A stretch of DNA of 42,800 bases from a virus: positions 1 through 42,800 of IMG/VR virus record IMGVR_UViG_3300050821_007199; one strand, written 5' to 3'. The notes under the pieces were generated by a model. The model saw only the letters and a program-made list of their open reading frames with translations, had not been told where the DNA came from and searched no databases. The position numbers and the translations under genes are program-made. Of this stretch, positions 255-41,002 are shown one piece after another (positions within the stretch are counted from its first letter, which is position 1; each line of letters starts with the position of its first letter).

Positions 255-917
255 ATGAATTGCACTCTATTCTCAGAAAACCCCGTCAACCTAAGCGCAA
301 CCCTCACCGAAACGTACCGGCCCCGTCGCGTTGCCGACTTCATCGGATTGGACGGCCCCAAAAAATACATGCGGTCGCTGATCTCGCGGCCTAAAGACTC
401 GGCTTGGCTCTTTGTCGGCCCCTCCGGTATGGGTAAGACAACCCTCGCCCTCGCGGTCGCTGAGGAATTACAGGCTGAGGTTACGCATATTCCCTCACGG
501 CGTTGCACTATCGAAGCTGTAGAGGCCGTGCGTCGCCGTTGCCAATATGTTCCGATGGCCGGTAAAAAGTTGCACCTTGTTTTAGTCGATGAGGCCGACA
601 CAATGAGCGACGCGGCCCAAGATGCTTGGCTCTCAATTCTAGACTCCACAAACCGCGCACCTAACACTGTAGTTATTTTTACCTGCAACGGCGTTGAACG
701 TTTGGCCGACCGGTTCCGGTCGCGTTGCTTCAACGTCGAGTTTTCATCTTACGGCGTCGCCAAAGACGCGGCCTCTATGCTTGAGCGGGTTTGGAATGAG
801 CAAACCAACGGCAACGCATCCGCGCCTAACTTTCAGCGGATTGTAAAGGATTCCTGCAATAACATCCGGGCGGCTCTCATGGCTCTTGAGATGGAGATAG
901 ACGCGGCCCTTGCATAA
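255..917 (+). CDS. Clamp-loader-like AAA+ ATPase (RFC/DnaX type), short form
   Basis: This 220-residue protein has the layout of a sliding-clamp loader ATPase. There is a TYRPR box near residue 20, a Walker A GPSGMGKTT at 55-63, a Walker B with DEAD at 112-115, a sensor-1-like TCN at 143-145, and the SRC arginine-finger motif typical of RFC small subunits at 156-158. It lacks the C-terminal collar domain of full-length loaders (usually 300 residues or more), so it either works inside a host complex or is an unusual minimal loader. It is first in the left operon, behind a sigma70-like promoter and a leader hairpin. V139-V140-I141 is encoded as GTA-GTT-ATT, forming one copy of the dispersed TGTAGTTATT motif. 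No clamp or polymerase gene is present in the window. The family call is solid; the precise role is inferred. Confidence 0.8.
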   Translation: MNCTLFSENPVNLSATLTETYRPRRVADFIGLDGPKKYMRSLISRPKDSAWLFVGPSGMGKTTLALAVAEELQAEVTHIPSRRCTIEAVEAVRRRCQYVPMAGKKLHLVLVDEADTMSDAAQDAWLSILDSTNRAPNTVVIFTCNGVERLADRFRSRCFNVEFSSYGVAKDAASMLERVWNEQTNGNASAPNFQRIVKDSCNNIRAALMALEMEIDAALA

Positions 918-944
918 TGGGCCGGTCGCATGATACCTTCAACG

Positions 945-972
945 TATAGTTATTAGACGGGCCGAACGGCCC
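945..972 (+). promoter_or_regulatory. Dispersed motif plus leader hairpin, copy 2
   Basis: TATAGTTATTA (945-955) is followed at once by GGGCC (959-963), GAAC and GGCCC (968-972), then CCAAACCC, ahead of the GTG start at 995. TATAGT could also act as a -10, but I see no matching -35 at normal spacing. Confidence 0.55.
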
Positions 973-994
973 CAAACCCAAAGGGGATTTACCA

Positions 995-1882
995 GTGAAT
1001 ACTTACGAAACGATTACCAATCACATCATCGCAACCCTCGAAACGGGGGTTATTCCTTGGCGCAAAGAGTGGAAGACGACCGGCAAAAACGGCGGGGGAT
1101 GCTTGCCTTATAACCTGATCTCCGGCAAGGCTTACAGGGGAGTCAATGTCTTGACGCTCATGTGCTCCGGGTATGCTTCGACGGGTTGGGCGACCTACAA
1201 GCAAGCGCAAACCCTCGGCTATCAGGTACGCAAAGGGGAGAAGTCAACCCCCGTTGTGTGGTGGAATTTTCCGACAAAAGAAGAGAGACTACAGGGCCGC
1301 GCACCTTACGCGAAACTGTTCCGCGTCTTCAACCTTGAGCAATTGGACGGCGTACCGGCAACCTTGCCCCTTGAGGATGCGGAACCGTTCAACGCTATTG
1401 CATCCGCTGAGGCCGTCGCTAATAACTACATGGCGGGGCCGTCGCATCCGTCGCTTGCTCATGGCGGGTCGAGTGCTTACTATTCCCCTTCATACGACCG
1501 GGTACAGATGCCCCCGCGTGAGGCTTTCACGGCCCCCGAAGCCTACTATTCAACCCTCTACCATGAGTTTGTACATTCGACGGGTATAAAGGGCCGTTGC
1601 GACCGCGAGGAGCTACAAGGGATACAGCGGTTTGGGGATTGCGACTATAGCAAAGAAGAATTGACGGCTGAGTTCGGGGCCGCGTTTCTTTGCGCTGAGG
1701 CCGGAATATCAAATGAGCCAATCCTTACTAACTCCGTGGCCTATATCCAAAATTGGATATCCAAGTTGCAGAACGATAAAACCCTAGCAGTACAGGCCGC
1801 GCAACGCGCACAAAAGGCCGCTGATTACATCTTGGGCCGGACGTTTGGAGAGGACGCGGGGCCGGTCGCGGCTGAGGAGTAA
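995..1882 (+). CDS. ardC: ArdC-type antirestriction protein with zincin metallopeptidase domain
   Basis: This 295-residue protein matches the ArdC layout. The N-terminal ArdC_N-type ssDNA-binding domain (about residues 1-115) carries the family signatures IPWRKEW and YRGVN. A C-terminal zincin-like peptidase follows, with HEFVH at 190-194 and a downstream AEF glutamate near 226 as the probable third zinc ligand. ArdC proteins are delivered by plasmids and phages and protect incoming DNA from host restriction. The start is GTG with an AGGGGATTT ribosome site, preceded by leader hairpin copy 2. N143-N144-Y145 is encoded AAT-AAC-TAC, making another copy of the dispersed motif in the reverse orientation. 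The family assignment is strong; restriction targets cannot be read from sequence. Confidence 0.88.
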   Translation: MNTYETITNHIIATLETGVIPWRKEWKTTGKNGGGCLPYNLISGKAYRGVNVLTLMCSGYASTGWATYKQAQTLGYQVRKGEKSTPVVWWNFPTKEERLQGRAPYAKLFRVFNLEQLDGVPATLPLEDAEPFNAIASAEAVANNYMAGPSHPSLAHGGSSAYYSPSYDRVQMPPREAFTAPEAYYSTLYHEFVHSTGIKGRCDREELQGIQRFGDCDYSKEELTAEFGAAFLCAEAGISNEPILTNSVAYIQNWISKLQNDKTLAVQAAQRAQKAADYILGRTFGEDAGPVAAEE

Positions 1883-1897
1883 ACGCAGAGGGACGCG

Positions 1898-1918
1898 GGG
1901 CCGGGTGATCTCCGGCCC
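1898..1918 (+). terminator. GC-rich hairpin after the ardC gene
   Basis: GGGCCGG (1898-1904) and CCGGCCC (1912-1918) form a perfect 7-bp stem with a 7-nt loop, 16 nt after the ardC stop. There is no U-tract, so it may protect the RNA end or be a weak attenuator rather than a true terminator. Confidence 0.45.
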
Positions 1919-1973
1919 TGCGGTAATGCGGCTAAGTGGGGAGTCCCAAGTCTCCCCCGCGCTCAACGTCAAC

Positions 1974-2013
1974 GGGCCATACGGCCCCAAACCCTGAGAG
2001 GAGTAACTACACA
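1974..2013 (+). promoter_or_regulatory. Leader hairpin, copy 3, with dispersed motif next to the start
   Basis: GGGCC (1974-1978), ATAC and GGCCC (1983-1987), then CCAAACCC and the ribosome site GAGAGGAG, precede the ATG at 2014. A variant of the dispersed motif, AGTAACTACA (2002-2011), lies between the ribosome site and the start codon. Confidence 0.55.
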
Positions 2014-2609: not shown

Positions 2610-2643
2610 TCAAGTGTAGTTATTCAGTCGGGCCAAGCGGCCC
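2582..2643 (+). promoter_or_regulatory. Internal promoter, overlapping dispersed motif and leader hairpin copy 4
   Basis: TTGGCC and TATAGT (17-bp spacer) form a fair sigma70 promoter. Its predicted transcription start, about 2617, falls inside the exact motif TGTAGTTATTC (2615-2625). Leader hairpin copy 4 follows: GGGCC (2630-2634), AAGC and GGCCC (2639-2643). This is the clearest case where a protein on the motif would block a promoter. Confidence 0.5.
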
Positions 2644-2667
2644 CAAACCCTGAGAGGAGTTCTCCCA

Positions 2668-2928: not shown

Positions 2929-2981
2929 TCTCAACCGGGGGCCGTACTGCGGCTCCCCATAACCTTCTAAGGAATAACTAC

Positions 2982-3350
2982 ATGGCTCGGCAAAAAATGA
3001 TTTTAGATTCTCAACGCGCAACCCTTTTGAAGAATGGCGCGGCGAATCTCGCGCATCGTCTCGATGACGGCAACACAGAGGACTTCCGGCCCGTCGTCAA
3101 ACTGTTCAACCCCTGCGGTGCTGCTACGTGGCTCTTGTCTGAATTGGATGAGGACGGCGATACCGCTTTCGGCCTCTGTGATCTCGGCATGGGGTCGCCG
3201 GAGTTGGGTTATATCTCTCTGGCTGAGGTCGCGGAAGTTCAATTGCCGCACGGCCTCTACATCGAACGCGATATCCATTTCACGGCTAAGAAGACGCTCT
3301 CCGAATATGCAACTGAGGCGCGGGCGGCTGGCAGAATTGAGGCGTACTAA
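2982..3350 (+). CDS. DUF2958 domain protein
   Basis: This 122-residue protein has the full DUF2958 signature: a PVVKLFNP segment near residue 36, then GAATWLLSELD, FGLCDLGMGSPELGY and a C-terminal EARAAGRI. DUF2958 proteins are common on conjugative plasmids and integrative elements, often beside antirestriction genes, and their biochemical role is not established. The start at 2982 sits on a copy of the dispersed motif: GAATAACTACA spans 2972-2982 and its last base is the A of the ATG. Its partnership with ArdC in one operon supports a plasmid-establishment module. Confidence 0.85.
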   Translation: MARQKMILDSQRATLLKNGAANLAHRLDDGNTEDFRPVVKLFNPCGAATWLLSELDEDGDTAFGLCDLGMGSPELGYISLAEVAEVQLPHGLYIERDIHFTAKKTLSEYATEARAAGRIEAY

Positions 3351-3844: not shown

Positions 3845-3845
3845 A

Positions 3846-3974: not shown

Positions 3975-3997
3975 ATGGGTGCAATAGAGCCGCAAAT

Positions 3998-4028: not shown

Positions 4029-4086
4029 CTGCGCTCCGGGTAGGGGTAAGGGTCGTCCGGGGTGGCTCCGGGCCGTCCTGGGCCTC

Positions 4087-4898: not shown

Positions 4899-5008
4899 TT
4901 TCTCGTGATAGTTGCCAGTGGCAACGTCCGGGGAAGGCTGATGCGGTTGACCGGCAACTTCAGAAAGTGCGGTTTGCGCTTTTGTGAGTATACCTGAATA
5001 ACTACACT

Positions 5009-5242: not shown

Positions 5243-5922
5243 CGCGGCAAGAGCCTGTATGCCTGGGTGATCTGAATTTCTAACAGGGCCATACCTTCGG
5301 GGCCGTCGTGCTGCTCGGCCTTCTCGCGGATGATCGGCAATCCGGTTTCGATGCTCTCTAAGACCTCGGCGCGGGTCGCCGGTCGGCCTTCTCGGAACCA
5401 TTCGGTTTTGAAGGCGCGGCCTAGCTTGAAAAGGATTCCGTCTCCGGCTCCTGGGCGACCGCGCACGGTTTGAAGCTCATGGCGGCGGGTGTACCAAAGC
5501 AGGGTGACGCCGGGGTTGCGCTCCACCATGACGCCGGGGGCTGGCTTCTTGGCCGCGTTGAACTCCTCGTCGGTGCGCCGGGTCATGTGAGGCTTGGAGA
5601 GAAACGGGCAATTCTTCGCGGCGTACTCGGCACATTCGCGGTGGCTCGGCGGCTCTGAGCTAATCCGGTTGACGGCGCACATTGGGCCGATGACAAAGAC
5701 CTCCTCGCCGTACAGCGGATTGCCGCACGTCCAGCAAAGGCGTTTATTCACGGCGGCGTAGAACTTGCGCCTATCCATTGCGCGAAACTCCGGCTCCCCT
5801 TTTATCCACTCGACAAACCACGGAACCGGGTAGCCTCGCCGGTCGATCGGCAATTTCTGCATGAGGCGGGGCGGTGTAGTTATGTCGTGACGGAGGGGGC
5901 ATTGCTGCGGGGCCGTGCTCAT
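5239..5922 (-). CDS. Cysteine-rich conserved phage protein
   Basis: This is a 227-residue protein. The start at 5922 overlaps the upstream stop as ATGA. An N-terminal GYPVPWFVEWIKGEPEFR segment is followed by a zinc-binding block near residues 60-105 with CWTCGNPLYGEEVFVIGPMC, HRECAEYAAKNCPF and a histidine downstream. This arrangement recurs in phage proteins of unknown function. A strand-rich second half ends in a helical tail. D-I-T-T near residue 14 is encoded by a motif copy (5875-5884, ending TTATG). Confidence 0.7.
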   Translation of the reverse strand: MSTAPQQCPLRHDITTPPRLMQKLPIDRRGYPVPWFVEWIKGEPEFRAMDRRKFYAAVNKRLCWTCGNPLYGEEVFVIGPMCAVNRISSEPPSHRECAEYAAKNCPFLSKPHMTRRTDEEFNAAKKPAPGVMVERNPGVTLLWYTRRHELQTVRGRPGAGDGILFKLGRAFKTEWFREGRPATRAEVLESIETGLPIIREKAEQHDGPEGMALLEIQITQAYRLLPR

Positions 5923-6239: not shown

Positions 6240-6472
6240 CGGTAGCCGTGGCCTTGACACAAGGAACATACCCCCTGCTTCTTCGCGTTCCATCCTGACC
6301 CTCCGCAATCTTCGCAAGCGGTGAGGGTTCCCGTCCCTCGACACTTGGGGCATTTACTGTGCGGCTTGGCGTTCTTCGTCGCCTTCCGGCAATTGCAGGG
6401 GCCGCGTCCATCGGGCTTGAGCGCGGCGGCGGCAATGTCGGTCGCGTCCATCAGTTGAACCCCACTATCCAT
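6236..6472 (-). CDS. DnaJ-type zinc-finger protein
   Basis: This 78-residue protein carries the cysteine-rich repeat of DnaJ chaperones. Paired CxxCxGxG motifs begin at C41 (CPKCRGTG), C53 (CEDCGGSG) and C69 (CSLCQGHG), with an extra CNC at 26-28. There is no J domain. I chose the ATG at 6472 because GGAGGAGGT lies 7 nt upstream; another in-frame ATG at 6502 would overlap the upstream gene by about 50 nt. Isolated DnaJ-like zinc fingers in phages may bind nucleic acid or chaperone a protein, which is inference. Confidence 0.75.
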   Translation of the reverse strand: MDSGVQLMDATDIAAAALKPDGRGPCNCRKATKNAKPHSKCPKCRGTGTLTACEDCGGSGWNAKKQGVCSLCQGHGYR

Positions 6473-6675
6473 CGCCGTACCTCCTCCCGGTTGGTAATCC
6501 ATCCGGGTAGCATCATGAACCCCACGCCGATTTGAATACCTACATGGTTCTGTAGCTCCTCGTGCTTGCGTAGGTCGCTCATCATCGACGTGAATGCCTG
6601 GGGGGTGTCGCCCGCGTCGAGGTATTCAAGGGCGCGTTGCTTGCACCATTCGAGATGTTCTTCTCTCGATCTCAT
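6451..6675 (-). CDS. Hypothetical small protein
   Basis: This is a 74-residue protein that starts with the charged helix MRSREEHLEWCKQRALEYLDAG. A second helix carries MSDLRKHEELQNH. A hydrophobic GIQIGVGFMML segment precedes the C-terminus. Short proteins with this REEHLEWCKQRALEYLD start occur in many phages; the function is unknown. It overlaps both neighbours (ATGA upstream, 22 nt downstream). Confidence 0.68.
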   Translation of the reverse strand: MRSREEHLEWCKQRALEYLDAGDTPQAFTSMMSDLRKHEELQNHVGIQIGVGFMMLPGWITNREEVRRWIVGFN

Positions 6676-7103
6676 CGGATTCGTTCTCCGCTGTCGGGGT
6701 CGGTAACGATACCCTCTACGGCCTTGTCGTCCTGGGTCTGCCGGAAGTAGCGAAACTCCTGCATGATCGCGGCCCCGGCTCCGGGCGGAAACTGCTGGTC
6801 GGTAAAGAAGCTCAAAACCATCGCGTCGGCCTCCGTTCGTGCGGCAATCTTGAGCAAGTCGTTTGCAATTTTGCAAGCCTCGGCAACGGAGAGTTGGGCT
6901 TTCTCTCCGTTGACTATGAGGCGGATGTAAGGTTGACGATCTCGCGCCGACACAATGCCGTCAATGAAGATGTGGGTATCGCCCGCGTTGGGAATATTGC
7001 CCGGTGGCGATGCGGTGAACTCGTGACAGTTGCCGCAATAGCCGTGCCGCTCATCGTCGGGGTGGTGGCTGATCGTTTGACACTTCGGGCATTTGAACGC
7101 CAT
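6672..7103 (-). CDS. Protein with N-terminal zinc ribbon
   Basis: This 143-residue protein opens with a zinc ribbon, CPKC at 5-8 and CGNC at 23-26 with nearby histidines, followed by an alpha/beta domain of about 110 residues. The family is common in actinobacterial and other phages, without assigned function. Its ATG directly follows a TAG in the string GAATAACTAGATGGC. The same string occurs at a second gene start at 40010, so a dispersed motif copy spans this gene junction. Confidence 0.7.
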   Translation of the reverse strand: MAFKCPKCQTISHHPDDERHGYCGNCHEFTASPPGNIPNAGDTHIFIDGIVSARDRQPYIRLIVNGEKAQLSVAEACKIANDLLKIAARTEADAMVLSFFTDQQFPPGAGAAIMQEFRYFRQTQDDKAVEGIVTDPDSGERIR

Positions 7104-7499
7104 CTAGTTATTCTCCCTTTTGCTCCTCATGAGGACGGCGGCGGGTATGTCGGTTATGTCGTCGGGTTCTCCTACGGCAATCCACTCCATTACGCGCTGT
7201 GGGATATCGGCTTTGGTGAACGCGGGCCACTCTCTTGCCATGATGTACATAGCCGACATAAACATCATCATGCCCCGCGTGTCATTGCTGAATATCTGGC
7301 GCACTTCAATAACCTTTTCCAGCACTTCGGCGTTGAAGATTCGCCATCGTTCCCTCTCGGCCTCGGTGAGCGTAATGCGGTACGTCTCGTCGCTCATAGC
7401 CTCCCGCCTCGATGCGCGGTTAGCTGGTGAAAATTCATCCATCGCCAACGGTTCCACGGTGGTACTTCCTTCGGTGGCCTTGTCTCGCACGTCGGACAA
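7104..7499 (-). CDS. Hypothetical phage protein, start uncertain
   Basis: This protein has up to 131 residues. No strong ribosome site is visible: candidate starts are TTG at 7499, GTG at 7490, ATG at 7442 or ATG at 7397 (with GGGAGG close upstream). The core ITLTEAERERWRIFNAEVLEKVIEV and the following helices look like a conserved helical phage protein. The stop codon is part of a dispersed motif copy. No function can be offered. Confidence 0.6.
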   Translation of the reverse strand: MSDVRDKATEGSTTVEPLAMDEFSPANRASRREAMSDETYRITLTEAERERWRIFNAEVLEKVIEVRQIFSNDTRGMMMFMSAMYIMAREWPAFTKADIPQRVMEWIAVGEPDDITDIPAAVLMRSKRENN

Positions 7500-7520: not shown

Positions 7521-7964
7521 TTACCGTAGCGTCTCGGACTGAATAAGCTCGATGAGTTTGGCGGCAAAACTGCGCGGAGGTAGGTCATATTCAACCGCAA
7601 CGCTCGTGCATAGTTCTTTGAATCGGCCAAAGGCAACGGCGAGGGCTGCTTCGGCATGGAATGGACGAGTTGCAGTTTGGGGCCGGTAGTGGCCGTTGCC
7701 GTTGGCTTGGAAGGTTGCTGTTTCGGGGAGAGTCGCAAGGCTCGTGCTCCTTTTGTTGTATTTGCGCTTGGTGCGCGTTTCCGCCGTGATTGGGGCGGGT
7801 TGGGGTAGAGAGGCTTTAACATCCTGCATCCTCTTGGCCTTGTGTGACCGGCCTAGTACGCCGTGGGCGGCTCGTCGGTGAATACCTAAATGGGCCGCAT
7901 CTTTGTAAACCTTGTCGCATCCCTCATGCGGGCAAGCGAAGTTATTCGGCTTTGGGTTCGTCAA
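7521..7964 (-). CDS. C2H2 zinc-finger protein
   Basis: This 147-residue protein has a classical-looking C2H2 finger, C11-x4-C16-x12-H29-x4-H34, followed by a basic linker with RTKRKYNKRS and an alpha-helical C-terminal domain. The TTG start at 7964 has AGGAG 6 nt upstream and overlaps the previous gene by 23 nt. Single C2H2 fingers of this eukaryote-like spacing are uncommon in bacterial viruses and suggest sequence-specific DNA binding. It is a candidate regulator, though nothing ties it to a site. Confidence 0.7.
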   Translation of the reverse strand: MTNPKPNNFACPHEGCDKVYKDAAHLGIHRRAAHGVLGRSHKAKRMQDVKASLPQPAPITAETRTKRKYNKRSTSLATLPETATFQANGNGHYRPQTATRPFHAEAALAVAFGRFKELCTSVAVEYDLPPRSFAAKLIELIQSETLR

Positions 7965-8277
7965 TCTTGCTCCTCTCTCTACTGCGCTTTCCGTATTCCA
8001 TCCGAAGCCGCAAGGCTTCCTCTGCGGTGGGGTGGGTTCTCCCGAAAATCGGGTGTTGGGTGTTGAATAACTCCATCACGTTATCAGCCTGTTTGTGTGA
8101 CAGGTAGCCGGTCACGTAGCCGATGTTCGCTAGCAGTGTCGCCCTGGCCTCCTCCTCGGTGATCTTCAAGACGACCGCGTTCTCTGCGGCCTCTTCCGCG
8201 ACCAATGCGGCGGCTTGTTCTTTGGTGCTGATCTCGCCGTCTTGCACGAGGTTTAGGATTTGCAACATGCTCCTCAT
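7942..8277 (-). CDS. Hypothetical helical protein
   Basis: This is a 111-residue protein rich in Ala and Glu and predicted mostly helical, with a basic Arg/Lys tail (LRLRMEYGKRSRERSK). The start at 8277 has GGAGGT 7 nt upstream; an ATG at 8268 is less well placed. No known motif is visible. It lies between a zinc-finger gene and a membrane-protein gene in a coupled run. Confidence 0.65.
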   Translation of the reverse strand: MRSMLQILNLVQDGEISTKEQAAALVAEEAAENAVVLKITEEEARATLLANIGYVTGYLSHKQADNVMELFNTQHPIFGRTHPTAEEALRLRMEYGKRSRERSKIDEPKAE

Positions 8278-8510: not shown

Positions 8511-8725
8511 CGTGCGGGTTCCTTTCTGAATTGTGATACCTGGGGGCATGTGGCGAAGTGGCTGATAGCGTCGCTCTCCGGCAACTTCATAAAGTCCATC
8601 GGGATTTTTTGTTTCGCTGGTGTAATCCACCATTCGATAGCGGCGTTGCAACCGGAACATCGGCTGTAGTTACTCCGGTGATATCCGGCCTGTTCCATCT
8701 CTGCGCGAGTCCGGGGGAAGTTCAT
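8369..8725 (-). CDS. Small putative zinc protein with low-complexity tail
   Basis: This is a 118-residue protein. The first 75 residues hold CSGC and a later HFATC with an intervening IEWWITPAKQKIP core, a zinc-binding pattern seen in small phage proteins. The last 45 residues are serine/alanine/proline rich and coincide with the out-of-frame membrane-protein gene at 8283-8510, so that tail may simply mirror the other frame. The ATG overlaps the upstream stop (TAATG). A motif variant (8665-8674) lies in the coding part. Confidence 0.62.
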   Translation of the reverse strand: MNFPRTRAEMEQAGYHRSNYSRCSGCNAAIEWWITPAKQKIPMDFMKLPESDAISHFATCPQVSQFRKEPARCTSQTSTLPDSQPSLFSSSSSPASDSSSTAAAAPPTVPEAEHKSES

Positions 8726-9291
8726 TAGTTTGTCCACCAATCGGGGATGAGGTCGGCTTCGGCTCTCCAATCCTCTGATCTGTCTTTGAGTGGGGTTGGG
8801 ATAAACCGTACCGTGTCGTTGGGGCCTTCGATGTACGTCTCCATGATGTTGTCAGTTGGAATCTCCGGGCCTTTCACCATGACGCATACGGCCTCATGCC
8901 AGACCTCGCGGGGAAGGTTTTTTACATGCCCGCCGTAGCGTCGAAGGGTTGCGTGATAGGCCGTCTTGAATTGGCTTATGGTTTCGCGGGTCGGCGGGTC
9001 GATTTTGAAGTACCGGCAAAAATCCTCCGACTTCACCCAACGGGTGTCGCTGACGACCGCGACGGCGACGGCCTGTAGCTTTCGCGCACCTTCGGCAATA
9101 ACCCGCATCATCTGTCTCTTCTCGTCGCTGTCACGGAAGGGCAATGGAATAACTACACTGTCGCCGTCCGGCCTCAAGATGAGGGCGCACGGCATCATCT
9201 TCTCGTCTTCGCTGTACTTGTACTGTGCTCGGATGCTTCGCGCTCGGTCGAGCAACGTTTGCATCAGCAACCTTGTGTCTACTACGTCCAT
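8725..9291 (-). CDS. Hypothetical phage protein
   Basis: This is a 188-residue alpha/beta protein without a clear domain. It contains CALILRPDGDSVVIPLPFRD, then a helical region with KLQAVAVAVVSDTRW, and ends in a Trp-rich tail. The ATG at 9291 lies inside the end of the preceding gene with GAAGAGGA upstream. V-V-I in the DSVVIPLPF segment is encoded GTA-GTT-ATT, giving an exact motif copy (9147-9157). Confidence 0.65.
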   Translation of the reverse strand: MDVVDTRLLMQTLLDRARSIRAQYKYSEDEKMMPCALILRPDGDSVVIPLPFRDSDEKRQMMRVIAEGARKLQAVAVAVVSDTRWVKSEDFCRYFKIDPPTRETISQFKTAYHATLRRYGGHVKNLPREVWHEAVCVMVKGPEIPTDNIMETYIEGPNDTVRFIPTPLKDRSEDWRAEADLIPDWWTN

Positions 9292-10105: not shown

Positions 10106-11464
10106 TTAGGCCGTTGCCGGAATCTTCTTCTTGCTCGGTGCTCTCTTCGCTTTGGTGGCCTTCGGCTCCGGCTCCGGGTTGACGGCCTTTACCTCGCCGT
10201 CTTCCAAGTAGACGCCCACCTTGCCGGAGGTATCAACTACTTCGACAAACACTTGGAAGTCATGCTCGTGCGCCATCTGCGAAACGATATTCATTGAAGC
10301 GTCGTCCAGCAAAGAGCCGTCCTTGATTCGCATGACGCGAAGCTCCGGGTTGGTTGCCATGCCGATAGCGACGCTGGCCCTGATCTGGTCGGCGTTCGAT
10401 ACCTGATTGAACGGCAACCCCTCGTAGATAACCTCCTCGTCGCCAAAGGCCAAGCCGGGTACGGGAAACTCGGCTGAGGAGATGGCGTTTACCTTCGCCT
10501 CTTCCTTCGCCTTGAGTCCCGCGCTAAGAGTCTCAATGCGCGAGTCTAGTTCGTCAATCTCCTGCTGGTAGCTGTCGCGCCGGTCGCGCCGGTCGATGGC
10601 GGCGTTGGTCGCCCTGGCCTTCGTGATCTGTTCGGCAAGCGCGGCGGCGTCCTTCGGCTCCGGTAGCGGCTTCCACTCTTTAATCATGGCGTCGGCCCTT
10701 TTCAGGCTCTCTATCCACTGCGCGGTTTCTTCTTCCATCTCCGCTAACTGTGCTCGTAGCTCCTCGATGCGGGTCTTGTTCTCGTTTATGTCGCGCTCCA
10801 ACACGTCGCGGTGGCCCTTGCGCTCGTCGCGGTGCCGCTGCTCTTTTGCGATACCTTCGTTGTAGCCGCTGACTTCCTGTAGCTCCGTGACCAACGCAAC
10901 CTCGTTGATCTTTGCTTTGGGAAGGTCGGCGGCTACGGCGATGGCGTCGCGCCTGATCTCGACCGCATCGCGCTCTTTCTTGAGGTCGCGGCGGGTGAGG
11001 TAGTCGGCCTTGTACTCGGCGTCGAGCGCGTCAAGGTCTACGTCCACCTTCACCAGTGAGCGCAATACCTCAAACTGCTTCTTGGGGTGCATCCGCAAAA
11101 ACTCTAGAGGGTCGAAACTAATCTTCCCCATCAGCTTGTCTAGAATCTCCTGCGGCCCCTGGTAGCGGCTCTTGCTGTCCTTCGCCTCAAGCGCGAGGGT
11201 TCCGTTGCGGCTTCCGCCTTCGGTGAAGCGGCGAGTAACTACAATATCCCCCAAGTCCAGTTGAATAACTGCGCGGCCTGAGCCTTTGCGTACCGGCTGC
11301 GACGGCACGGTGCTGGTGCCGGTCAACGCCCACTCGATTCCGTCGAGGATGCTGGTCTTGCCTGAGCCGTTCGCGCCGGAGATGCGGTTGATAAATTTGT
11401 TGGGTGTGAGGTCGATGGCCTTCAACCTCTTGATGTTCTCTGCCTTCAATCCGATGACTCGCAC
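10106..11464 (-). CDS. SMC/RecF-like ATPase with coiled coil
   Basis: This is a 452-residue protein. The N-terminal head carries Walker A GANGSGKTS at 30-38. A long charged coiled-coil region spans about residues 150-320. A C-terminal head half has an ABC-signature-like segment (FNQVSNADQIRASVAIGMA) and a D-loop-like LLDD. The layout matches small SMC/SbcC/RecF-type ATPases, and a Lys/Pro basic tail ends it. No SbcD nuclease is beside it. The GTG start overlaps the stop of the ribbon-helix-helix gene (TAGTG), coupling the two. Roles in recombination, segregation or defence are all possible. Confidence 0.82.
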   Translation of the reverse strand: MRVIGLKAENIKRLKAIDLTPNKFINRISGANGSGKTSILDGIEWALTGTSTVPSQPVRKGSGRAVIQLDLGDIVVTRRFTEGGSRNGTLALEAKDSKSRYQGPQEILDKLMGKISFDPLEFLRMHPKKQFEVLRSLVKVDVDLDALDAEYKADYLTRRDLKKERDAVEIRRDAIAVAADLPKAKINEVALVTELQEVSGYNEGIAKEQRHRDERKGHRDVLERDINENKTRIEELRAQLAEMEEETAQWIESLKRADAMIKEWKPLPEPKDAAALAEQITKARATNAAIDRRDRRDSYQQEIDELDSRIETLSAGLKAKEEAKVNAISSAEFPVPGLAFGDEEVIYEGLPFNQVSNADQIRASVAIGMATNPELRVMRIKDGSLLDDASMNIVSQMAHEHDFQVFVEVVDTSGKVGVYLEDGEVKAVNPEPEPKATKAKRAPSKKKIPATA

Positions 11465-11688
11465 TATCGCACTCCTGCTTTCTTCTTTGCCGTCCTGGGG
11501 GTCGCGGTGCGCTTGGCTCCGTTGGTCGTAGCTGGCTCCGGGTTGGGGTTGTGGGAGAGGTAAAAGTCAATCATCTTATTCAGCATGGAAGTGCGGTCGC
11601 GGTGGTCGGCCTCGGCCATCCTGTCGATGATTTCTACCGTGTCAGTAGGGCAGTAAAAATTCAGCTTAGTTTTGCTCATGGAATCCAT
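11464..11688 (-). CDS. Ribbon-helix-helix DNA-binding protein
   Basis: This is a 74-residue protein, or 71 if started at the ATG at 11679. The KLNFYCPTDTVEIIDRMAE to MLNKMIDFYL region (residues 8-45) has the beta-alpha-alpha layout of the CopG/Arc ribbon-helix-helix fold, followed by a basic tail rich in Thr, Arg and Lys. It is divergent from the plus-strand gene at 11800, and the shared intergenic region holds promoters and a palindrome. That is the usual setting for an autoregulated repressor. It is the leading candidate regulator of the minus-strand module B. Confidence 0.75.
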   Translation of the reverse strand: MDSMSKTKLNFYCPTDTVEIIDRMAEADHRDRTSMLNKMIDFYLSHNPNPEPATTNGAKRTATPRTAKKKAGVR

Positions 11689-28651: not shown

Positions 28652-28662
28652 TGTAGTTATTC
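28652..28662. promoter_or_regulatory. Dispersed motif copy upstream of adaptor gene 1
   Basis: TGTAGTTATTC is an exact consensus copy in the 43-nt gap between the 28681 and 27603 genes, about 15 nt upstream of the adaptor start. Confidence 0.6.
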
Positions 28663-29716: not shown

Positions 29717-29727
29717 TGTAGTTATTC
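29717..29727. promoter_or_regulatory. Dispersed motif copy after the capsid gene
   Basis: TGTAGTTATTC is an exact consensus copy between the capsid hairpin (29732-29762) and the next gene's start at 29698. Confidence 0.6.
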
Positions 29728-29771: not shown

Positions 29772-30917
29772 TTAGGTGATCGCGGTAGCCGCATCGGTGT
29801 AGCGGATGCGCTGTACCGGGTCGGGGGGAAGCGTCGCGGTGTACATGGTGTTGTACGAAGCGAAGCCGCCAATCATGCGCGAGGGGTCATACCCGCTCGG
29901 CTCCGTGAGTCGGCGTACCCAAACTTGCAGGTTGCGCCAATCGCCGTCGCCAATTTGGGTATTTTCTTTCGCGCCGAAGGACACTCCGATAACGCCGTCA
30001 CGACCGATGACGTAGGTGCGGAGTTTGACCGGCGCGGTTCCGGTTTGCTTAACAAGAGTTGACTGGTGGAAACTCGCGCCTCCCCAATCAATCACTGTGA
30101 CCTCATCGCCATCCGGGGCGGGGAGTTCGCGTAGCTTCTCCTGGCCTTCCGCCGTCCTCTTCAGAACGTCGGTGATGCCATTGGGCTGCGTGGAGATGAG
30201 AATGTCGCCCACGATGAGCGGATGGATTACTCCGGTAAAGCGTCCGTTCTCGAAGGGAAGGGCATTGACGCTGGTGAGGGATTGCACCATCGCCGTTATG
30301 TCCTGCGCGACAAGATTGGTTCCCAACGGCACATGAACCACAAGCGCGTCTACAACGCTGGCTCCGTCGGCGGTGTTCTGAATGATGAGGTTGATAACCT
30401 GCGCGAGTCGATAGGCCATCTGAACGCCCAACGCTTCAAGCGCGGGGTCGATGGCGGTCTGTAGCGCGTAGGTCGAGATGTTCGCGTAGTCGGCGTAGTT
30501 GCCAATGGTGGACGTGTTCTGTACGACCGACACAGTTAGGCCGGTCTGAATCGTTCCCTCCGGTGCCTGGGTGAGCGGCGGGGCCGGAAGGTTCTGGTAC
30601 ATGAACAGGGCAAGTTTGTTGCCCGCGTTTTCATCCAAAGTCCGACGCGCCGTGCATCTGACCCACGGCGTTTCGGCCTTTAGATTTTCAACGAAAACTT
30701 TGTCCCAGCTAGTAACTACAGACTGCGGCAAATTGGTGGTCAAGTTGGATGCGGGCGAGACGCCTACAGCCAACGCGCCGTGTACGCGATAACGCGCCAC
30801 GTCTCCCGTCCAGAAAACGACTTGCCCGCCGATTCCGGCGAGAAATTCGATGAACGGGATAAGGTACTTCCGCGAAAACGCCTTGCCGCGCTCTGCGGCG
30901 GATGAAGAGACTCGCAT
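29772..30917 (-). CDS. Major capsid protein, N4 gp56-like
   Basis: This is a 381-residue protein. The LPQSVVTSWDKVFVENLKAETPWVR start, then RRTLDENAGNKLALFMYQNLP, matches the N4-gp56 family of HK97-fold capsid proteins, as does the ITAMVQSL to VGDILISTQ region. No long pro-domain is visible. Its ATG is immediately preceded by a hairpin holding the ribosome site. An inverted TAGTTACT variant lies in SVVTS (30711-30720). The position after a scaffold-like gene supports the call. Confidence 0.8.
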   Translation of the reverse strand: MRVSSSAAERGKAFSRKYLIPFIEFLAGIGGQVVFWTGDVARYRVHGALAVGVSPASNLTTNLPQSVVTSWDKVFVENLKAETPWVRCTARRTLDENAGNKLALFMYQNLPAPPLTQAPEGTIQTGLTVSVVQNTSTIGNYADYANISTYALQTAIDPALEALGVQMAYRLAQVINLIIQNTADGASVVDALVVHVPLGTNLVAQDITAMVQSLTSVNALPFENGRFTGVIHPLIVGDILISTQPNGITDVLKRTAEGQEKLRELPAPDGDEVTVIDWGGASFHQSTLVKQTGTAPVKLRTYVIGRDGVIGVSFGAKENTQIGDGDWRNLQVWVRRLTEPSGYDPSRMIGGFASYNTMYTATLPPDPVQRIRYTDAATAIT

Positions 30918-30945: not shown

Positions 30946-31781
30946 GCGCCTAAAGCATCGACCGCCTTCCGAAACGCCGGGTCATTGTTGATTCTGTCCA
31001 TGTACTCCCGCCTCGGCATACGCTCAATGTCTGCGCGTGTGATCTTCTTCGGCGCGGGCGGCGGGGGCGGTGAAGCGGAAGCATCTGAGCTTCTAATCCC
31101 CGTCGATACGCTCCGTGGTCTGCTCGTAGGAGAGGGAGGGTTAGGCTCCGGCGAAGGTTGGGCTTCGCGCTGCTGTCCGTTGGGTGCTGCGGGTGCTCCG
31201 TTGCTTTCGCCCTCTTCGGGCCACGGAATCATCTGGCCCTGGTCGAAAAGCATTTGAAAAACAATTGCGAGATTGTTGCGCGTGAGGTCGTAGTTATTGA
31301 ACTCAAGCGCGGCAAAGAGTTTCTGTTGGTTCTGTGGAACCGGGTAGTAATCCGGGGTTGCTTCCACGAAGGCTTGGGCCTCGGCCTGATAGTAGGCGTC
31401 GCGCTGGTCTTTGGTCATCGTCGCTACGCTGTTGATCGCCTGACGCGGGGTTACGCCGTCCTGGGCTGCGGTGACGATCTCGGTCACGGCGTCTACAACC
31501 TTGTCGGGGTCGGTGATATCCGTTGCCAGCCGGAGTTTGTCGGCTGGTGTTAGTGTCTTTGTTTCGGTTTTGAGTTGTTGGGGAACCCTCGCTTGATCTG
31601 GCCGTCGTAGGCGGCTGATCTCGCGGTTAGCGTTGGCCTGTGACTCCAACACTTTGTCTGCGACCTCCTTGTAACTCTTGCCTTTGAAGGTCGAGATTCT
31701 TAATCCTGCGGCGTTCTCAATAACTGCAACGTAGTCGCCGGATTCGTCCGGCTCGCCATTGTTCAACCATTTGGGTTGCAT
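30942..31781 (-). CDS. Probable scaffolding protein
   Basis: This is a 279-residue, acidic and helical protein with a Pro/Ser/Ala-rich linker (SPEPNPPSPTSRP, ASPPPPPAPKK) and a short C-terminal helix (RREYMDRINNDPAFRKAVDALGA in outline). Position between portal-side genes and capsid, helical composition and the separate small C-terminal helix fit a scaffolding protein that binds capsid through its C-terminus. The motif variant CAGTTATT at 31717-31726 encodes VAVIEN, and an exact copy (31289-31299) encodes FNNYDL. Confidence 0.68.
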   Translation of the reverse strand: MQPKWLNNGEPDESGDYVAVIENAAGLRISTFKGKSYKEVADKVLESQANANREISRLRRPDQARVPQQLKTETKTLTPADKLRLATDITDPDKVVDAVTEIVTAAQDGVTPRQAINSVATMTKDQRDAYYQAEAQAFVEATPDYYPVPQNQQKLFAALEFNNYDLTRNNLAIVFQMLFDQGQMIPWPEEGESNGAPAAPNGQQREAQPSPEPNPPSPTSRPRSVSTGIRSSDASASPPPPPAPKKITRADIERMPRREYMDRINNDPAFRKAVDALGA

Positions 31782-32611: not shown

Positions 32612-32813
32612 CGGGCGGCTCCGTGAACTTATGGTTGTTGTGAATAACTACACTCACTTCGTACCTCTCCTTTTCCACGCGGGGCTTGCATCCGCAGAAC
32701 GCTCCTAGTGCATGGCCGGATGCGATGATGCCCCGCGCATCGCATGGTGCAATGTCGATCTCGCTTTTGCGTCGGTAAACTCCCCATCGTCGGTTGGACG
32801 GCTGGCGTTCCAT
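32598..32813 (-). CDS. Small conserved protein after the portal gene
   Basis: This is a 71-residue, basic protein with CDARG, CGCKP and a SVVIHNNHKFTEPPDG segment. It begins directly after the portal stop (TAAATG). SVVIH is encoded across an exact dispersed motif copy (32642-32652). The cysteines could bind a metal. The function is unknown. Confidence 0.6.
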   Translation of the reverse strand: MERQPSNRRWGVYRRKSEIDIAPCDARGIIASGHALGAFCGCKPRVEKERYEVSVVIHNNHKFTEPPDGNS

Positions 32814-35062: not shown

Positions 35063-35100
35063 TTGAAATACAACTTTTCGCTTATCATTCGCTCGAATAA

Positions 35101-36837
35101 CTACTCAAGTCCCGGCATGACAACTTCTAGCCCCTGATCGTTGTAGAGCCGGTCTTCGATTCCTGGCTCTACCGCAACCTCCTCCGGCTCCGGCTCGACC
35201 GGCGTGTACTGGCCGCGACCGTAGATGAGGTTGTACTTGTCGCGTTCGCGCATCATCTCCCATGCTAGGTCTTCTTCCTCTAGCTCGGTGGCGGCGATGC
35301 TGACCGGCAAGTTGTCGGCCACGCGGGAGACTACATCGGGAAGGCCGCTATCCTCCGTCATGCCATACTGCACGAAGCCCTGAATGAGCGGCTTGGTCTT
35401 GAGGCTGTTGGAGAAGTAGAGCCGCGACGATGCTAGTAGCGGCTCTATGCTGCGGATGCGCGTATCGCGCTCGGCGGCGTCGGCCTGAAACTCCGTCCAT
35501 GTGATCTGAATGTCCCAACCCGTCGTCAGACTGTAGTTATTCACGGCGGGCTGAATGAGCCGCGCTCCGGGCGACTCCTCGATCTCGACGTTATGGGTGC
35601 CGTTGCGTCGCGCCGTGTCGTGAATCATCTTCGCCAGAACGGAGGGCTTGTAGTGGCCCTGTATCGTCTCGGTGATGTACATGCGGTTGCGATGCATGAG
35701 GCCGACCGCGCCGGAGGTTGTCAGCCAATTCGCGCTCCGGCACGGTAGGCGGAAGTGAACGAAGCGCGTTCCCTCTAGCGGCAAGTCGGCCTCCTCCACC
35801 ATCGCGGCAAGCATCTGCGCGTCGGTGAAGACGAGTTCGGCGGCTCCGTAGCTGTCGAGCATGTACTGACTCATAAAAAACTCGAAGTCGGCCTCGTACT
35901 CTTCGCGCAAAAATTCGTAGCTGAGGATAGTAGGGAAGAGGAGTTCAACTTCGTCCTCGGTGGGGAAGCCGTTAGGGTCTAGGCGTTCGCCGTTCAACAG
36001 ACGCATCGCCGGTTTGAAGACGCGGTGATAGCTCCCCGGCCTCGCCGTCAAAACCTCGTCGCTGAATGTATCGCCTAAACCGTATGGGGTGCCAATTTTG
36101 ATCTCGATGCCGGTAGGCTTCAAGATTTTGCGCGTGAGTTTGTAGGCTTTAGTTATTCGTACCCGGCCTTCGTAGTTCTTGGAGTTGCGATTGGTGTTGA
36201 TATCGTCGTACACCAAAACGTCGGGGTGCCAGCCGGTCGTATTGGAGTCAATCGAATTGGCCCATATCAACGGCTCTACGATCTTGGGTTCGTGCTGCCG
36301 GAGCGGGCAGGTGAATTGCCCGGAGTCCTTCGGCGGCTTCGATAAGCAGAGTTCGGGGAACAATGCCTGGAAGAGTGTCGGGGCGCGGTAGCTCGGCTTG
36401 ATGAAGAAACTCGCTATCTGGTCAACGAAGGCGAAGGCTAGGTCTTTGGCTCCGCTCATAATCAGAATCGCCAGCGTCATGTAGTAATGCAGGATGAGTT
36501 GAACGCAGTAGGCAAGGTCGAGCGTCGTCTTGTAGGTATTGCGCGGGTAGAGGAGAGTGCGCCGACGCTTGCGGCCTACGTGTAGCTCCTCGACCGTCTG
36601 TGCCGGGTCGATCTCAGGGAAGAAAGCGACGGCCTCATGGTGAACGTCCTCGGTGATGAGGCAATAGCCAAGCACATAGCAGAGAGCGAGAAGGTTGGTT
36701 TTGCAGCATCGACGGCCATCCTCTTTGATCTCCTCGTCGGCCAACACAAGTTCGGTAAGCTCGGCTCTCCATGCGCGATTGTCGCCGCGCTCCTGATTCG
36801 GGTCGCGCAACCGTCGCCAGTTGAAATGCTGCTTCAT
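35101..36837 (-). CDS. terL: Terminase large subunit
   Basis: This is a 578-residue protein. It has an ATPase domain with a Walker A-like PRNTYKTT at 98-105 and a Walker B VLVYDD at 207-212, then a nuclease-type domain with several acidic residues, including DVVSRVADN near the C-terminus. The Y-K-T-T form of the motif is common in phage terminases that differ from the classical GKT. It overlaps the 36834 gene (ATGA). It packages DNA with the portal; no small subunit is clearly seen. Copies of the motif encode VNNYS (35532-35542) and RITKA (36148-36158). Confidence 0.85.
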   Translation of the reverse strand: MKQHFNWRRLRDPNQERGDNRAWRAELTELVLADEEIKEDGRRCCKTNLLALCYVLGYCLITEDVHHEAVAFFPEIDPAQTVEELHVGRKRRRTLLYPRNTYKTTLDLAYCVQLILHYYMTLAILIMSGAKDLAFAFVDQIASFFIKPSYRAPTLFQALFPELCLSKPPKDSGQFTCPLRQHEPKIVEPLIWANSIDSNTTGWHPDVLVYDDINTNRNSKNYEGRVRITKAYKLTRKILKPTGIEIKIGTPYGLGDTFSDEVLTARPGSYHRVFKPAMRLLNGERLDPNGFPTEDEVELLFPTILSYEFLREEYEADFEFFMSQYMLDSYGAAELVFTDAQMLAAMVEEADLPLEGTRFVHFRLPCRSANWLTTSGAVGLMHRNRMYITETIQGHYKPSVLAKMIHDTARRNGTHNVEIEESPGARLIQPAVNNYSLTTGWDIQITWTEFQADAAERDTRIRSIEPLLASSRLYFSNSLKTKPLIQGFVQYGMTEDSGLPDVVSRVADNLPVSIAATELEEEDLAWEMMRERDKYNLIYGRGQYTPVEPEPEEVAVEPGIEDRLYNDQGLEVVMPGLE

Positions 36838-37293: not shown

Positions 37294-37303
37294 GGCTCTC
37301 TCC

Positions 37304-37453: not shown

Positions 37454-37462
37454 GTTGCCCTC

Positions 37463-38379: not shown

Positions 38380-38750
38380 AACGCCTCCTCTTCCGCGTAG
38401 CTGCGGATGACGGCTCCGGCCCATTCCTCGGCCTGGGCCTTTGTGATGCGCTTCCATTCCGGCGTGTGTAGCCTACCGTTCACCTTGCCCGCGAAGCGTA
38501 CAAGGTCGAACTCCTCCGGCCTCTCGTCGTAGTGCTCGATGAAGACGACGCGATGGGGCGAGATGTTTAGGTGGTAGTCGAGGAAGGCGTTGGCGAAGTC
38601 TTCGATTGAATTGGTGATGCTCGGACAAATGTAGGTGCTGCTGCGGTCAGTAACTATAACCGTCGTCCAAGCGGCGTTCTCGTAGACGCGCACCCAATGA
38701 GTAACCTTGCGTCTGAGGCCGTCGGTGTAGGTGAAGGTTTCAATCGGCAA
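38376..38750 (-). CDS. Hypothetical protein with TTG start
   Basis: This is a 124-residue protein beginning at TTG with GAGGAGG about 6 nt upstream, overlapping the previous gene by 11 nt. The segments TVIVTDRSSTYICPS and HRVVFIEHYDERPEEFDLVRF are alpha/beta in type. The frame is open further upstream only as a shadow of the zinc-protein gene. A motif variant (38649-38658) encodes the VIVTD part. Confidence 0.62.
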   Translation of the reverse strand: MPIETFTYTDGLRRKVTHWVRVYENAAWTTVIVTDRSSTYICPSITNSIEDFANAFLDYHLNISPHRVVFIEHYDERPEEFDLVRFAGKVNGRLHTPEWKRITKAQAEEWAGAVIRSYAEEEAL

Positions 38751-39108
38751 CTTCTGCCTCCTCGACTGGAACCTCCGGCGTCGCCTTCGGCTTGGGGCCG
38801 CGCTTCTTCGGGGGGTTGGCTTTACGATACTCCCGCTCGGCAAGCTCCCCCGGCGATAGCTCGGCGTCGGGCGGCGGGTTCTTCTCCTCGTGCTTGCGCC
38901 AACGCAGATACCGGCTGCGCTCCTCCGGTGTCGAAGGGCGGCGGCAATACCTGCACTCGCGGGCATCCTGCTTGCTGCGGCGGAAGTTCTTGCGCTGTAG
39001 GCTGCACTCGGCTGAACAGGTGATCGCCTGTTTGGGCCGGTCTTTGGGGATGGGGGTTCCACACATAACGCAGTGTGTAGTGATCTGGCTGAAAGCGTCT
39101 TTCCGCAT
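38740..39108 (-). CDS. Zinc-binding protein with basic tail
   Basis: This is a 122-residue protein. CVMCGTP, CSAEC and CRYCRRP give three cysteine groups near residues 13-56, followed by an Arg/Lys/Pro-rich disordered tail (PKKRGPKPKATPEVP). That is a typical DNA-associated small zinc protein. The ATG overlaps the RusA stop (TGATG). It may modulate the RusA-like neighbour or be a regulator. Confidence 0.68.
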   Translation of the reverse strand: MRKDAFSQITTHCVMCGTPIPKDRPKQAITCSAECSLQRKNFRRSKQDARECRYCRRPSTPEERSRYLRWRKHEEKNPPPDAELSPGELAEREYRKANPPKKRGPKPKATPEVPVEEAEVAD

Positions 39109-39539
39109 CAATGCTCCAATCTAGTTACTAGGTATTCGGTACGGGGGTTCTCGCGGTCGTCTTTGTGGACAACGCACTTGCTGTTCTCGCCGTCCACGAA
39201 GGCATCGGAATGAATCACCCCGCAGTTCACTAGGGCATCCAGACCGCATTTCCAAAAGTTGTCGAAGTCTCCGCGCTGACGCGGCCCCAAGTAAACATCC
39301 ATGCGAACGGTGTAGCGCACCTTGCGCCGGTCGGCGGCGTCCTGGGGGGCCACTGTCCGGCCCCGCGCAAAGATGGCGACGGCATCTTTGAAGGCTTTGA
39401 CCTCCGGGCTGACTTTGCGGCCCCGATGCGCGTAGCCGTCCCTGCCGGTATACATGCAGGGTTGATAGGCATGGTTGACCGTCGGCGGGATGAGGTAGGG
39501 AACCGTGAACGCTACGACCTCTTCGATTCCAGTTGACAT
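39108..39539 (-). CDS. rusA: RusA-like Holliday-junction resolvase
   Basis: This is a 143-residue protein. The strand YTVRMDVYLGPRQRGDFDNFWKCGLDAL (in outline), then a VIHSDAFVDG ending, matches the RusA family. The spaced Asp residues in RGDFDN and SDAFVDG are the metal-binding acids. It would resolve recombination or replication branches before packaging. It is the first gene of the minus-strand operon, only 28 nt from the divergent plus gene at 39568. An in-frame CTAGTTACTA variant lies at 39121-39130. Confidence 0.82.
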   Translation of the reverse strand: MSTGIEEVVAFTVPYLIPPTVNHAYQPCMYTGRDGYAHRGRKVSPEVKAFKDAVAIFARGRTVAPQDAADRRKVRYTVRMDVYLGPRQRGDFDNFWKCGLDALVNCGVIHSDAFVDGENSKCVVHKDDRENPRTEYLVTRLEH

Positions 39540-39570
39540 AGTTGCAGCTTACCTGCACAGTGTAGTTATG
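39533..39570. promoter_or_regulatory. Compact divergent region with motif copy at a start codon
   Basis: The 28-nt gap between the two divergent genes holds TGTAGTTATG (39561-39570), whose ATG is the start of the plus gene. A TTGACA (39533-39538) lies inside the rusA start region. For the minus operon a TTGCCA -35 and TAAGCT -10 at 17 bp are weak and flank the motif. Promoters may extend into both genes, and a repressor here would control both sides. Confidence 0.4.
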
Positions 39571-39816
39571 GCAACTAAAAAACTCACCACAAAAGGCTAT
39601 GCGAAGGGGGTAGGCCAACGCTCCAAGAAGCGTACCGGCTATATCGTCCAGAGCATCCGCATTTTGGTTGCGGATAACAAGAAGATGCACAACGCGGCGA
39701 AGGCGGAAAACCGCTCTTTCAACGGTTGGGCGCAAACTGTTCTGCTGCGCGAGGCCGACAAGGTTCTCAAGCGTGTAGAGGCTGCAAAACAAAAGAAAGT
39801 GACGACGGAGGCATAA
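39568..39816 (+). CDS. Small Arc/ribbon-helix-helix-like protein
   Basis: This is an 82-residue, Lys/Arg-rich protein. YIVQSIRILVADNKKMHNAAKAENRSFNGWAQTVLLREADKV (in outline) has the strand-helix-helix pattern of Arc-like proteins, with the RSFNGWAQTVL segment like the second helix of DUF1778/Arc types. Its ATG is within a dispersed motif copy, so it may regulate itself. It is the first gene of the replication module and a candidate binder of the motif. Confidence 0.6.
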   Translation: MATKKLTTKGYAKGVGQRSKKRTGYIVQSIRILVADNKKMHNAAKAENRSFNGWAQTVLLREADKVLKRVEAAKQKKVTTEA

Positions 39817-39817
39817 C

Positions 39818-40009
39818 TTGGCAAAACCCGCTGCACCACAGAAAGACAATCAACCCAAACCCCTCATCCCTGTGACCACTGACGCACGTTCCGAACTCTA
39901 CTTCCTGCTTGGCCGGTTGCAGGGCGCGGGCATCGAAAGTGCCGACCGCATCACGGTTCTGGTGACTGAGCTAACCGCACCTGCCCCCGCAGAAGGAGAG
40001 AATAACTAG
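39818..40009 (+). CDS. Hypothetical small protein, TTG start
   Basis: This is a 63-residue protein with a TTG start and GGAGG 7 nt upstream. A Pro-rich N-terminus precedes a helical half (SELYFLLGRLQGAGIESADRITVLVTELT in outline). Its stop sits in the string GAATAACTAG next to the following ATG. No function is recognised. Confidence 0.55.
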   Translation: MAKPAAPQKDNQPKPLIPVTTDARSELYFLLGRLQGAGIESADRITVLVTELTAPAPAEGENN

Positions 40010-40423
40010 ATGGCGACGCTATACCGCACGGATGGACGCATGGAGGAGTTGCAGCCCGCGAACGGCGTCAATTGGAGCCTCGAAGAGCTACAAACCCTCG
40101 TGGGCGGATACATCGAAGTGACCCGAACGGTAGACGGGCGATTCCTAGTGCTCGATGAGGAAGGGAAGCTCAAGCGCAAAGACTTGAACATCTTCGCTAC
40201 CCGGCTTTATGTGTACGGTCGTCACGACCCCATTGTGGGCGATGCGGTTGTGATCGACACTAGGTTGGAGATAAACGGGCCGGACGAGGAGGAGGAATCG
40301 TCCTGTCCCACGATGGGGTCGGGTGGTGTGCATACCGACTCCTACTATGACGATGGCATATGCCAAACCTGCGGGGCGAAAAAGAAACTCCCTATCGCCG
40401 CCGAGGAGGAGGACGATGGCTAA
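40010..40423 (+). CDS. DUF3846 protein with extra zinc-type tail
   Basis: This is a 137-residue protein. TDGRMEELQPANGVNWSLEELQTLVGGYIE in outline, then FATRL and PIVGDAVVID, is the DUF3846 signature. The family is frequent in phages and plasmids, with unknown role. The last 40 residues add an acidic tail with a lone C-x2-C (CQTC) and His/Cys residues. The start follows GAATAACTAGATGGC, a motif copy spanning the gene junction. Confidence 0.78.
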   Translation: MATLYRTDGRMEELQPANGVNWSLEELQTLVGGYIEVTRTVDGRFLVLDEEGKLKRKDLNIFATRLYVYGRHDPIVGDAVVIDTRLEINGPDEEEESSCPTMGSGGVHTDSYYDDGICQTCGAKKKLPIAAEEEDDG

Positions 40424-40718
40424 GAAAGGCCGCTACATCAGCGACGGGTACTCCGGGCAGACACCTATTAGGTTCTGCCCGGTCTGCTTTCATAAGCTCG
40501 ATGGCGTCACCAACCTACAGGGCAAAGAGAAGCCGCGAACCGGCGACTTTACGATCTGCATAGAGTGTGCCAATGTGCTGAAATTCACTGACAATTTGGA
40601 TATGGAGTTGTCCTCACTAGAGGCGATTCCTGTTGAGAGCCGCTTCGACTTTGCGAAGGTCGTTATGACCCTCAAGACGTTGGGGGCATATGCTAGTCGC
40701 TTCACCCGGAGGATGTAG
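40416..40718 (+). CDS. Small zinc-binding protein
   Basis: This is a 100-residue protein. CPVC followed 30 residues later by CIEC gives a zinc ribbon. N-terminal basic residues and helical ends suggest nucleic-acid binding. The ATG overlaps the DUF3846 gene by 8 nt with GAGGAGGA upstream. The function is unknown. Confidence 0.65.
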   Translation: MAKKGRYISDGYSGQTPIRFCPVCFHKLDGVTNLQGKEKPRTGDFTICIECANVLKFTDNLDMELSSLEAIPVESRFDFAKVVMTLKTLGAYASRFTRRM

Positions 40719-40720
40719 TT

Positions 40721-41002
40721 ATGGAAGTCCTAATGCCCCGCGAAGAGTGGGAGGATTTAAAAGAAACATGCTTACTCAAGCATGGGATGAGTGAGCGTGA
40801 TATTCGCCGTTTTCGCATGGTCTTCCTCGGTGCGCTCTCGGCTGCGACCGACTTTTATTGTGACCTCATCGCAGGGGATTTATCGCCGGAGGAGAAGCGA
40901 AAGCGGTATAACGATTGGATTGCTGATCTAGAACGTGAGATGAAAGAGTTTGAGGCTGAAATGCTGGCTTTTCTTGGAGAGGTGAATGTCAATATTCAAT
41001 GA
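40721..41002 (+). CDS. Hypothetical helical protein upstream of RepA
   Basis: This is a 93-residue protein, all-helical and acidic in its second half. The ATG is part of a dispersed motif copy, TGTAGTTATG (40714-40723), with GGAGG (40707-40711) as ribosome site. It overlaps repA by 17 nt, so it may help couple or regulate RepA translation, as leader peptides do in some plasmids. Confidence 0.6.
   Translation: MEVLMPREEWEDLKETCLLKHGMSERDIRRFRMVFLGALSAATDFYCDLIAGDLSPEEKRKRYNDWIADLEREMKEFEAEMLAFLGEVNVNIQ

Follow-up and report, generated by a model that had tools for sequence, protein, structure and literature searches.

A short asymmetric motif is dispersed along a 42.8-kb stretch of DNA from the IMG/VR virus record IMGVR_UViG_3300050821_007199 (hereafter the window), and there is good support for reading it as a dispersed system of regulatory sites in a phage-plasmid. 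With a rough probability of 55%, the motif would be the operator of a phage-encoded DNA-binding protein, most likely the small ribbon-helix-helix (RHH) protein encoded at 39568-39816, with its sites scattered over a phage-plasmid genome.

The 8-mer TAGTTATT occurs 22 times in the window (10 forward and 12 reverse), against about 0.2 copies expected under a second-order and about 0.6 under a third-order Markov model, and it is among the most over-represented 8-mers of the window. A position weight matrix of the TGTAGTTATTC motif yields 41 window sites at a threshold of at least 12 bits, compared with 2 in the reversed control. These figures bear out the first-pass annotation, which had described about 22 exact cores over 40 kb in both orientations together with about ten close variants, where less than one copy was expected, and which had proposed codon-shuffled controls as a check. 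After codon shuffling, with the intergenic copies left in place, the mean count of the 8-mer is 8.6 as against the 22 observed, and the 31 sites lying fully within genes compare with a mean of 4.9 and a maximum of 10 in 100 shuffles. As the genic sites exceed the shuffled controls and occupy several reading frames in both senses, selection can be taken to act on the DNA. Information resides in about 10 positions, forming a sharp asymmetric 10-bp core, and since the flanks carry almost none, the sites do not derive from longer repeats.

Non-coding DNA of the window holds 10 sites where 3.0 are expected (p=0.0005), and 12 sites lie near gene starts where 4.4 are expected (p=0.004); overlap with promoters is only weakly enriched genome-wide. 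Site orientation is indifferent to transcription, with 84 syn and 73 anti sites across eight genomes (p=0.42) and 24 of 41 in the window (p=0.35). Mean density is roughly one site per kilobase over the genome, the longest site-free stretch of the window being the 7.7 kb between 17948 and 25653, in the presumed tail region. Several relatives have large gaps roughly where this stretch falls.

A terminase search led to 22 viral loci, from which seven contigs were read whole (six near full length, one of 32.5 kb). Their alignment with the window is for the most part collinear and covers roughly half of it, at a nucleotide identity of about 72%. In G006-G010 the window word ranks among the leading enriched 8-mers, and variants ending in AC instead of AT are found in G017 (TGTAGTTACTC) and G015 (TG[T/C]AG[T/C]TACG), the latter additionally carrying TGCAGCTACG. 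The first-pass annotation had proposed looking in related phages for copies at positions that do not align, and such copies were found: motif copies in the seven contigs mostly fail to align with window sites, and only a few are shared, e.g. those at 17948, 28016 and 35532. Mean conservation is 0.65 at sites and 0.69 in the flanks, which indicates no overall positional constraint, though a few sites are kept; density is retained while site positions turn over. No such dispersed array was detected in the more distant relatives G028, G030 and G031. A search of the whole collection keyed on two close motif copies returned only two unrelated contigs of lower GC.

Retained density with positional turnover, together with the absence of an orientation rule, would also be expected if the sites served to organise or segregate the DNA. 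In that case an RHH protein distributed along the genome would condense or tether the plasmid prophage, in the manner of MatP or of RHH proteins that bind centromeres. MatP is among the weak fold matches of the RHH protein, and no ParA was found, which leaves the mode of partition unexplained. The excess of sites at gene starts, in non-coding DNA and at the RHH promoter speaks instead for transcription control, and we regard organisation of the DNA as rather unlikely, although both functions could hold together. The motif divergence among relatives bears on a further proposal, already raised in the first-pass annotation, that the motif is a host-related mark (a nucleoid, recombination or uptake signal) carried because the host has it. 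A search for the host by terminase against genome contigs gave no match, which leaves this proposal some room. However, related phages have different variants, one of them GC-rich, even within metagenome 3300036803 (G003, G017), and there is no strand bias as Chi- or KOPS-like signals would show. A host-wide mark is thus disfavoured, because close relatives carry different motif variants, and we consider it improbable.

The protein encoded at 39568-39816 (plus strand, 82 aa) is the best-supported candidate for the binder of the dispersed sites. Its relatives are present in all seven collinear contigs at 52-66% identity, with an invariant VQSIR strand. RHH transcription factors have a strand-helix-helix fold and dimerise so that a beta ribbon contacts the DNA; in the AlphaFold monomer model of the 82-aa protein, helices span residues 34-46 and 51-81 and are preceded by a strand region of low confidence. 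Foldseek matches of the model in the PDB are almost all RHH proteins (Arc, CopG, AtaR, KacA, NikA, AmrZ and MatP), none of them with E<1. The protein gave no match by tblastn in phages and plasmids, nor by sequence in the PDB.

A promoter-like TTGACA-N17-CACAGT was read in the sequence at 39533-39561 (plus strand), 6 nt 5' of the RHH start codon and with 3 of 6 positions matching in its -10 element; TTGACA or TTGCCA in similar layout precedes the gene in most relatives. The site TGTAGTTATGG at 39561-39571 (+) covers the ATG of the RHH gene together with its start region and is the sole window site in a consensus promoter-like stretch. Sites lie inside the corresponding stretch of G006, G015 and G017 and, by reading the sequence, in the promoter-like stretch of G003, G008, G013 and G016 as well. 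In the relatives they occupy the spacer, the -10 element or the start codon in either orientation, and the copies of G015 and G017 are compatible with each genome's own motif variant. The divergent start region of the RHH gene is one of the two with the most site-bearing genomes (5 of 8), and 12 of the 18 RHH start regions contain the core TAGTYA, as against 12-16% of other starts, although the sequences are related and this gives no strict probability. Among the genomes with the motif, G015 and G017 have the most diverged RHH proteins and also diverged motifs, overall divergence likewise being greatest there.

It is conceivable, though we judge it unlikely, that another phage protein binds the motif, e.g. 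the C2H2-finger protein at 7521-7961 or the product of 6451-6675, and that the RHH promoter is merely one of its targets. The former is broadly conserved with a weak zinc-finger match; the latter is matched in every motif-bearing genome compared and in neither G028 nor G030, and G028 carries an RHH protein without the motif. Against this, 6451-6675 also matches G032, which has no dispersed array, and neither gene shows the promoter link of the RHH gene. As regards the small regulators singled out in the first-pass annotation, 39568-39816 thus emerges as the strongest, and the CopG-like RHH gene at 11464-11688 was rejected, having no match in the motif-bearing G008, G015 and G017.

If the RHH protein is the binder, it would occupy the motif sites, repress its own promoter and others, and, when bound within genes, hinder elongation in either direction. 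Jointly, the sites could keep the lytic genes quiet in a plasmid-prophage state, lysogeny being itself presumed, and the array may possibly confer immunity. A repressor-type protein with many operators would explain both the promoter site and the sites in gene bodies. A bolder and rather doubtful version is that the small RHH protein coats the phage-plasmid via dense, turning-over, orientation-independent asymmetric sites, so as to silence or condense the whole prophage. Several observations weigh against control by the RHH protein. The excess of sites at gene starts is weak in several relatives, and enrichment in non-coding DNA and at starts is weaker there than in the window. G009/G007 and G010 are without a strong site at the RHH promoter, and the promoter counts are not independent because the sequences are related. 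G028 has a 51%-identical RHH protein and no detectable dispersed motif, so the RHH protein alone does not predict the array. The fold call was made on a medium-confidence model (predicted local distance difference test score 69) with Foldseek E-values above 1, and RepA is the sole evidence for lysogeny.

We read the array as one of dispersed operators, closest to the C1 system of P1 and functionally like the stoperators of L5. P1 is a phage-plasmid whose C1 repressor represses its own promoters and has 22 dispersed asymmetric operators with a 17-bp consensus, ATTGCTCTAATAAATTT (PMC8546580). The window likewise has a plasmid replicon (RepA_C with iteron-like repeats) and, with 41, shares the feature of about 20 or more dispersed asymmetric sites. 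Unlike P1, it has more sites in a smaller genome with most of them inside genes, the candidate binder is an 82-aa RHH protein, and the P1 consensus is unrelated to TGTAGTTATTC when the two are compared by reading. Nothing resembling the C1, Coi or Lxc of P1 was recognised; the listed profile-scan matches include no repressor family, and no homology search for C1 was made.

Cluster A mycobacteriophages such as L5 and Bxb1 have 20-30 short asymmetric stoperators genome-wide, at promoters and elsewhere, with a motif that drifts between relatives (PMC6550527, PMC9283540). The stoperators of L5 are aligned with the direction of transcription and lose function when reversed (PMC9283540). The L5 repressor is a 183-aa helix-turn-helix (HTH) protein with a second DNA-binding domain. 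Many short asymmetric sites over a phage genome (41 in the window, with a 10-bp core) are common to both, whereas the window motif is unrelated in sequence, its sites have no orientation bias and its presumed binder is probably a protein of unrelated type. The listed PHROGs, Pfam and NCBIfam matches (for Pfam and NCBIfam over all proteins, the first 25 families) include no HTH repressor of L5 type, some 180 aa long and with a second DNA-binding domain, and no L5-repressor query was run. The stoperator-like character proposed in the first-pass annotation therefore holds as far as dispersed asymmetric regulatory sites are concerned; the array is not a member of the stoperator family, since its sites do not follow the L5 orientation rule and no HTH-type repressor is among the listed matches.

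MatP with matS and other dispersed RHH systems resemble the proposed one in combining an RHH protein with many short genomic sites. The palindromic 13-bp matS site is restricted to a single domain of the chromosome, whereas the window motif is asymmetric and distributed along a phage genome. To our knowledge, no phage has been described in which an RHH protein exerts such control over the whole genome. Few phages are known to use dispersed operators (P1 and the cluster A mycobacteriophages). The present system, if confirmed, would add one more example, apparently independent of these, that combines another protein fold with the lack of an orientation rule, and would suggest that plasmid-like prophages have acquired this strategy repeatedly. 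The short sites and the 82-aa protein make the system easy to test.

The phage-plasmid setting, as first annotated, is supported by a RepA_C plasmid replication initiator at 40986-41915 (plus strand; Pfam PF04796, E=1.6e-14; 34% identity over 99% to a plasmid RepA), by iteron-like repeats, and by ArdC and DUF2958 genes. Its recognised phage genes include those for terminase, portal and major head protein. Two near-perfect copies of a 23-bp iteron-like repeat, distinct from the dispersed motif, lie at 41978-42022 (plus strand), and a further diverged copy is visible; these repeats are probably the RepA origin. That the dispersed sites are themselves iterons or copy-number sites bound by RepA might be entertained because RepA_C is present in the window and in 5 of 9 relatives examined. 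This is already largely refuted and very improbable, as G008 and G010 carry the motif but no detectable RepA_C, G028 has RepA_C but not the motif, and the separate 23-bp repeats adjoin repA.

Exact copies of the 11-mer TGTAGTTATTC, 4 forward and 5 reverse, are situated in intergenic DNA at 2615-2625 (+), 4996-5006 (-), 28652-28662 (+; kept in 3 relatives) and 29717-29727 (+; 3' of the major capsid gene), and in genes at 9147-9157 (-), 17948-17958 (-; kept in 5 of 7 relatives), 32642-32652 (-) and 35532-35542 (+; in the terminase gene, kept in 6 of 7 relatives). The remaining copy, at 2972-2982 (-), is conserved in G009. The intergenic positions given in the first-pass annotation (2615, 2972, 4996, 28652 and 29717) are correct; of its start-codon sites, 39561 and 40714 do overlap an ATG, whereas 2972 merely ends on the A of the ATG of 2982-3350. 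In 5 of 8 genomes a site lies before the major capsid gene, the gene preceding window site 29717.

The second TGTAGTTATGG copy, at 40714-40724 (+), overlaps the ATG of 40721-41002, which immediately precedes repA and has the same direction. Further sites are associated with gene boundaries, namely TCTAGTTATTC at 7103-7113 (+) and 40000-40010 (-), at the start codons of 6672-7103 and 40010-40423, respectively, TCTAGTTACTA at 39120-39130 (+), near the start of 38740-39108, and AGTAGTTATTC at 35095-35105 (-), at the end of the terminase gene. Intergenic variants are TATAGTTATTA at 945-955 (+) and TGTAGTTACTC at 8665-8675 (+), the latter word recurring at 2001-2011 (-) and 11233-11243 (-), and genic ones include TGTAGTTATTT at 668-678 (+) and TGTAGTTATTA at 1420-1430 (-). 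The word TGTAGTTATTG is found at 15159-15169 (-), 25653-25663 (-) and 28016-28026 (-; kept in 5 relatives), and TGCAGTTATTG at 12474-12484 (-) and 31718-31728 (-). Other plus-strand variants are TGTAGTTATGT (5875-5885), TGCAGTTATTC (26976-26986), TATAGTTATTT (27294-27304), CGTAGTTATTG (31289-31299), TTTAGTTATTC (36148-36158) and the weak sites TGTAGTGACTC (16789-16799) and TGTAGGTATTG (36531-36541). Those on the minus strand are TGTAGGTATTC (6534-6544), TGGAGTTATTC (8065-8075), CGCAGTTATTC (11263-11273), TGCAGTTATTA (12416-12426), TATAGTTATTG (16857-16867), TGTAGTTATAG (17631-17641), TGTAGTTACTA (30710-30720) and TATAGTTACTG (38648-38658).

In G032, the word TGTAATACA was rejected as a related dispersed motif, being mostly a local repeat at 38-41 kb. 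Between 38316 and 41214 of that contig (loci L099 and L100), the local repeat TGTAATACAATAGAATACATGG or a near-match occurs at 38316, 39062, 39476, 39870 and 41192, with a variant at 40855, and forms a separate promoter- or operator-like element. Both ends of contig G008 (loci L036 and L038) bear terminal inverted repeats with short loops, e.g. ...GGGAAAAATGTTATGC-loop-GCATAACATTTTTCCC, which look as if reads had rounded a hairpin end; a profile search for the protelomerase family PF16684 gave no match. Several assemblies among G006, G009, G010, G015 and G017 start or stop near the same conserved sequences, and these shared contig ends suggest fixed genome ends.

The window also carries plasmid-type cargo, an ArdC anti-restriction gene at 995-1882 and a DUF2958 gene at 2982-3350. 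A 452-aa SbcC/RecF-like ATPase is encoded at 10106-11464; of the relatives examined, the incomplete G031 alone gave no match to it. The 115-aa product of 11800-12147 (plus strand) is 78-84% identical in G010, G015 and G032, the other relatives having no match.

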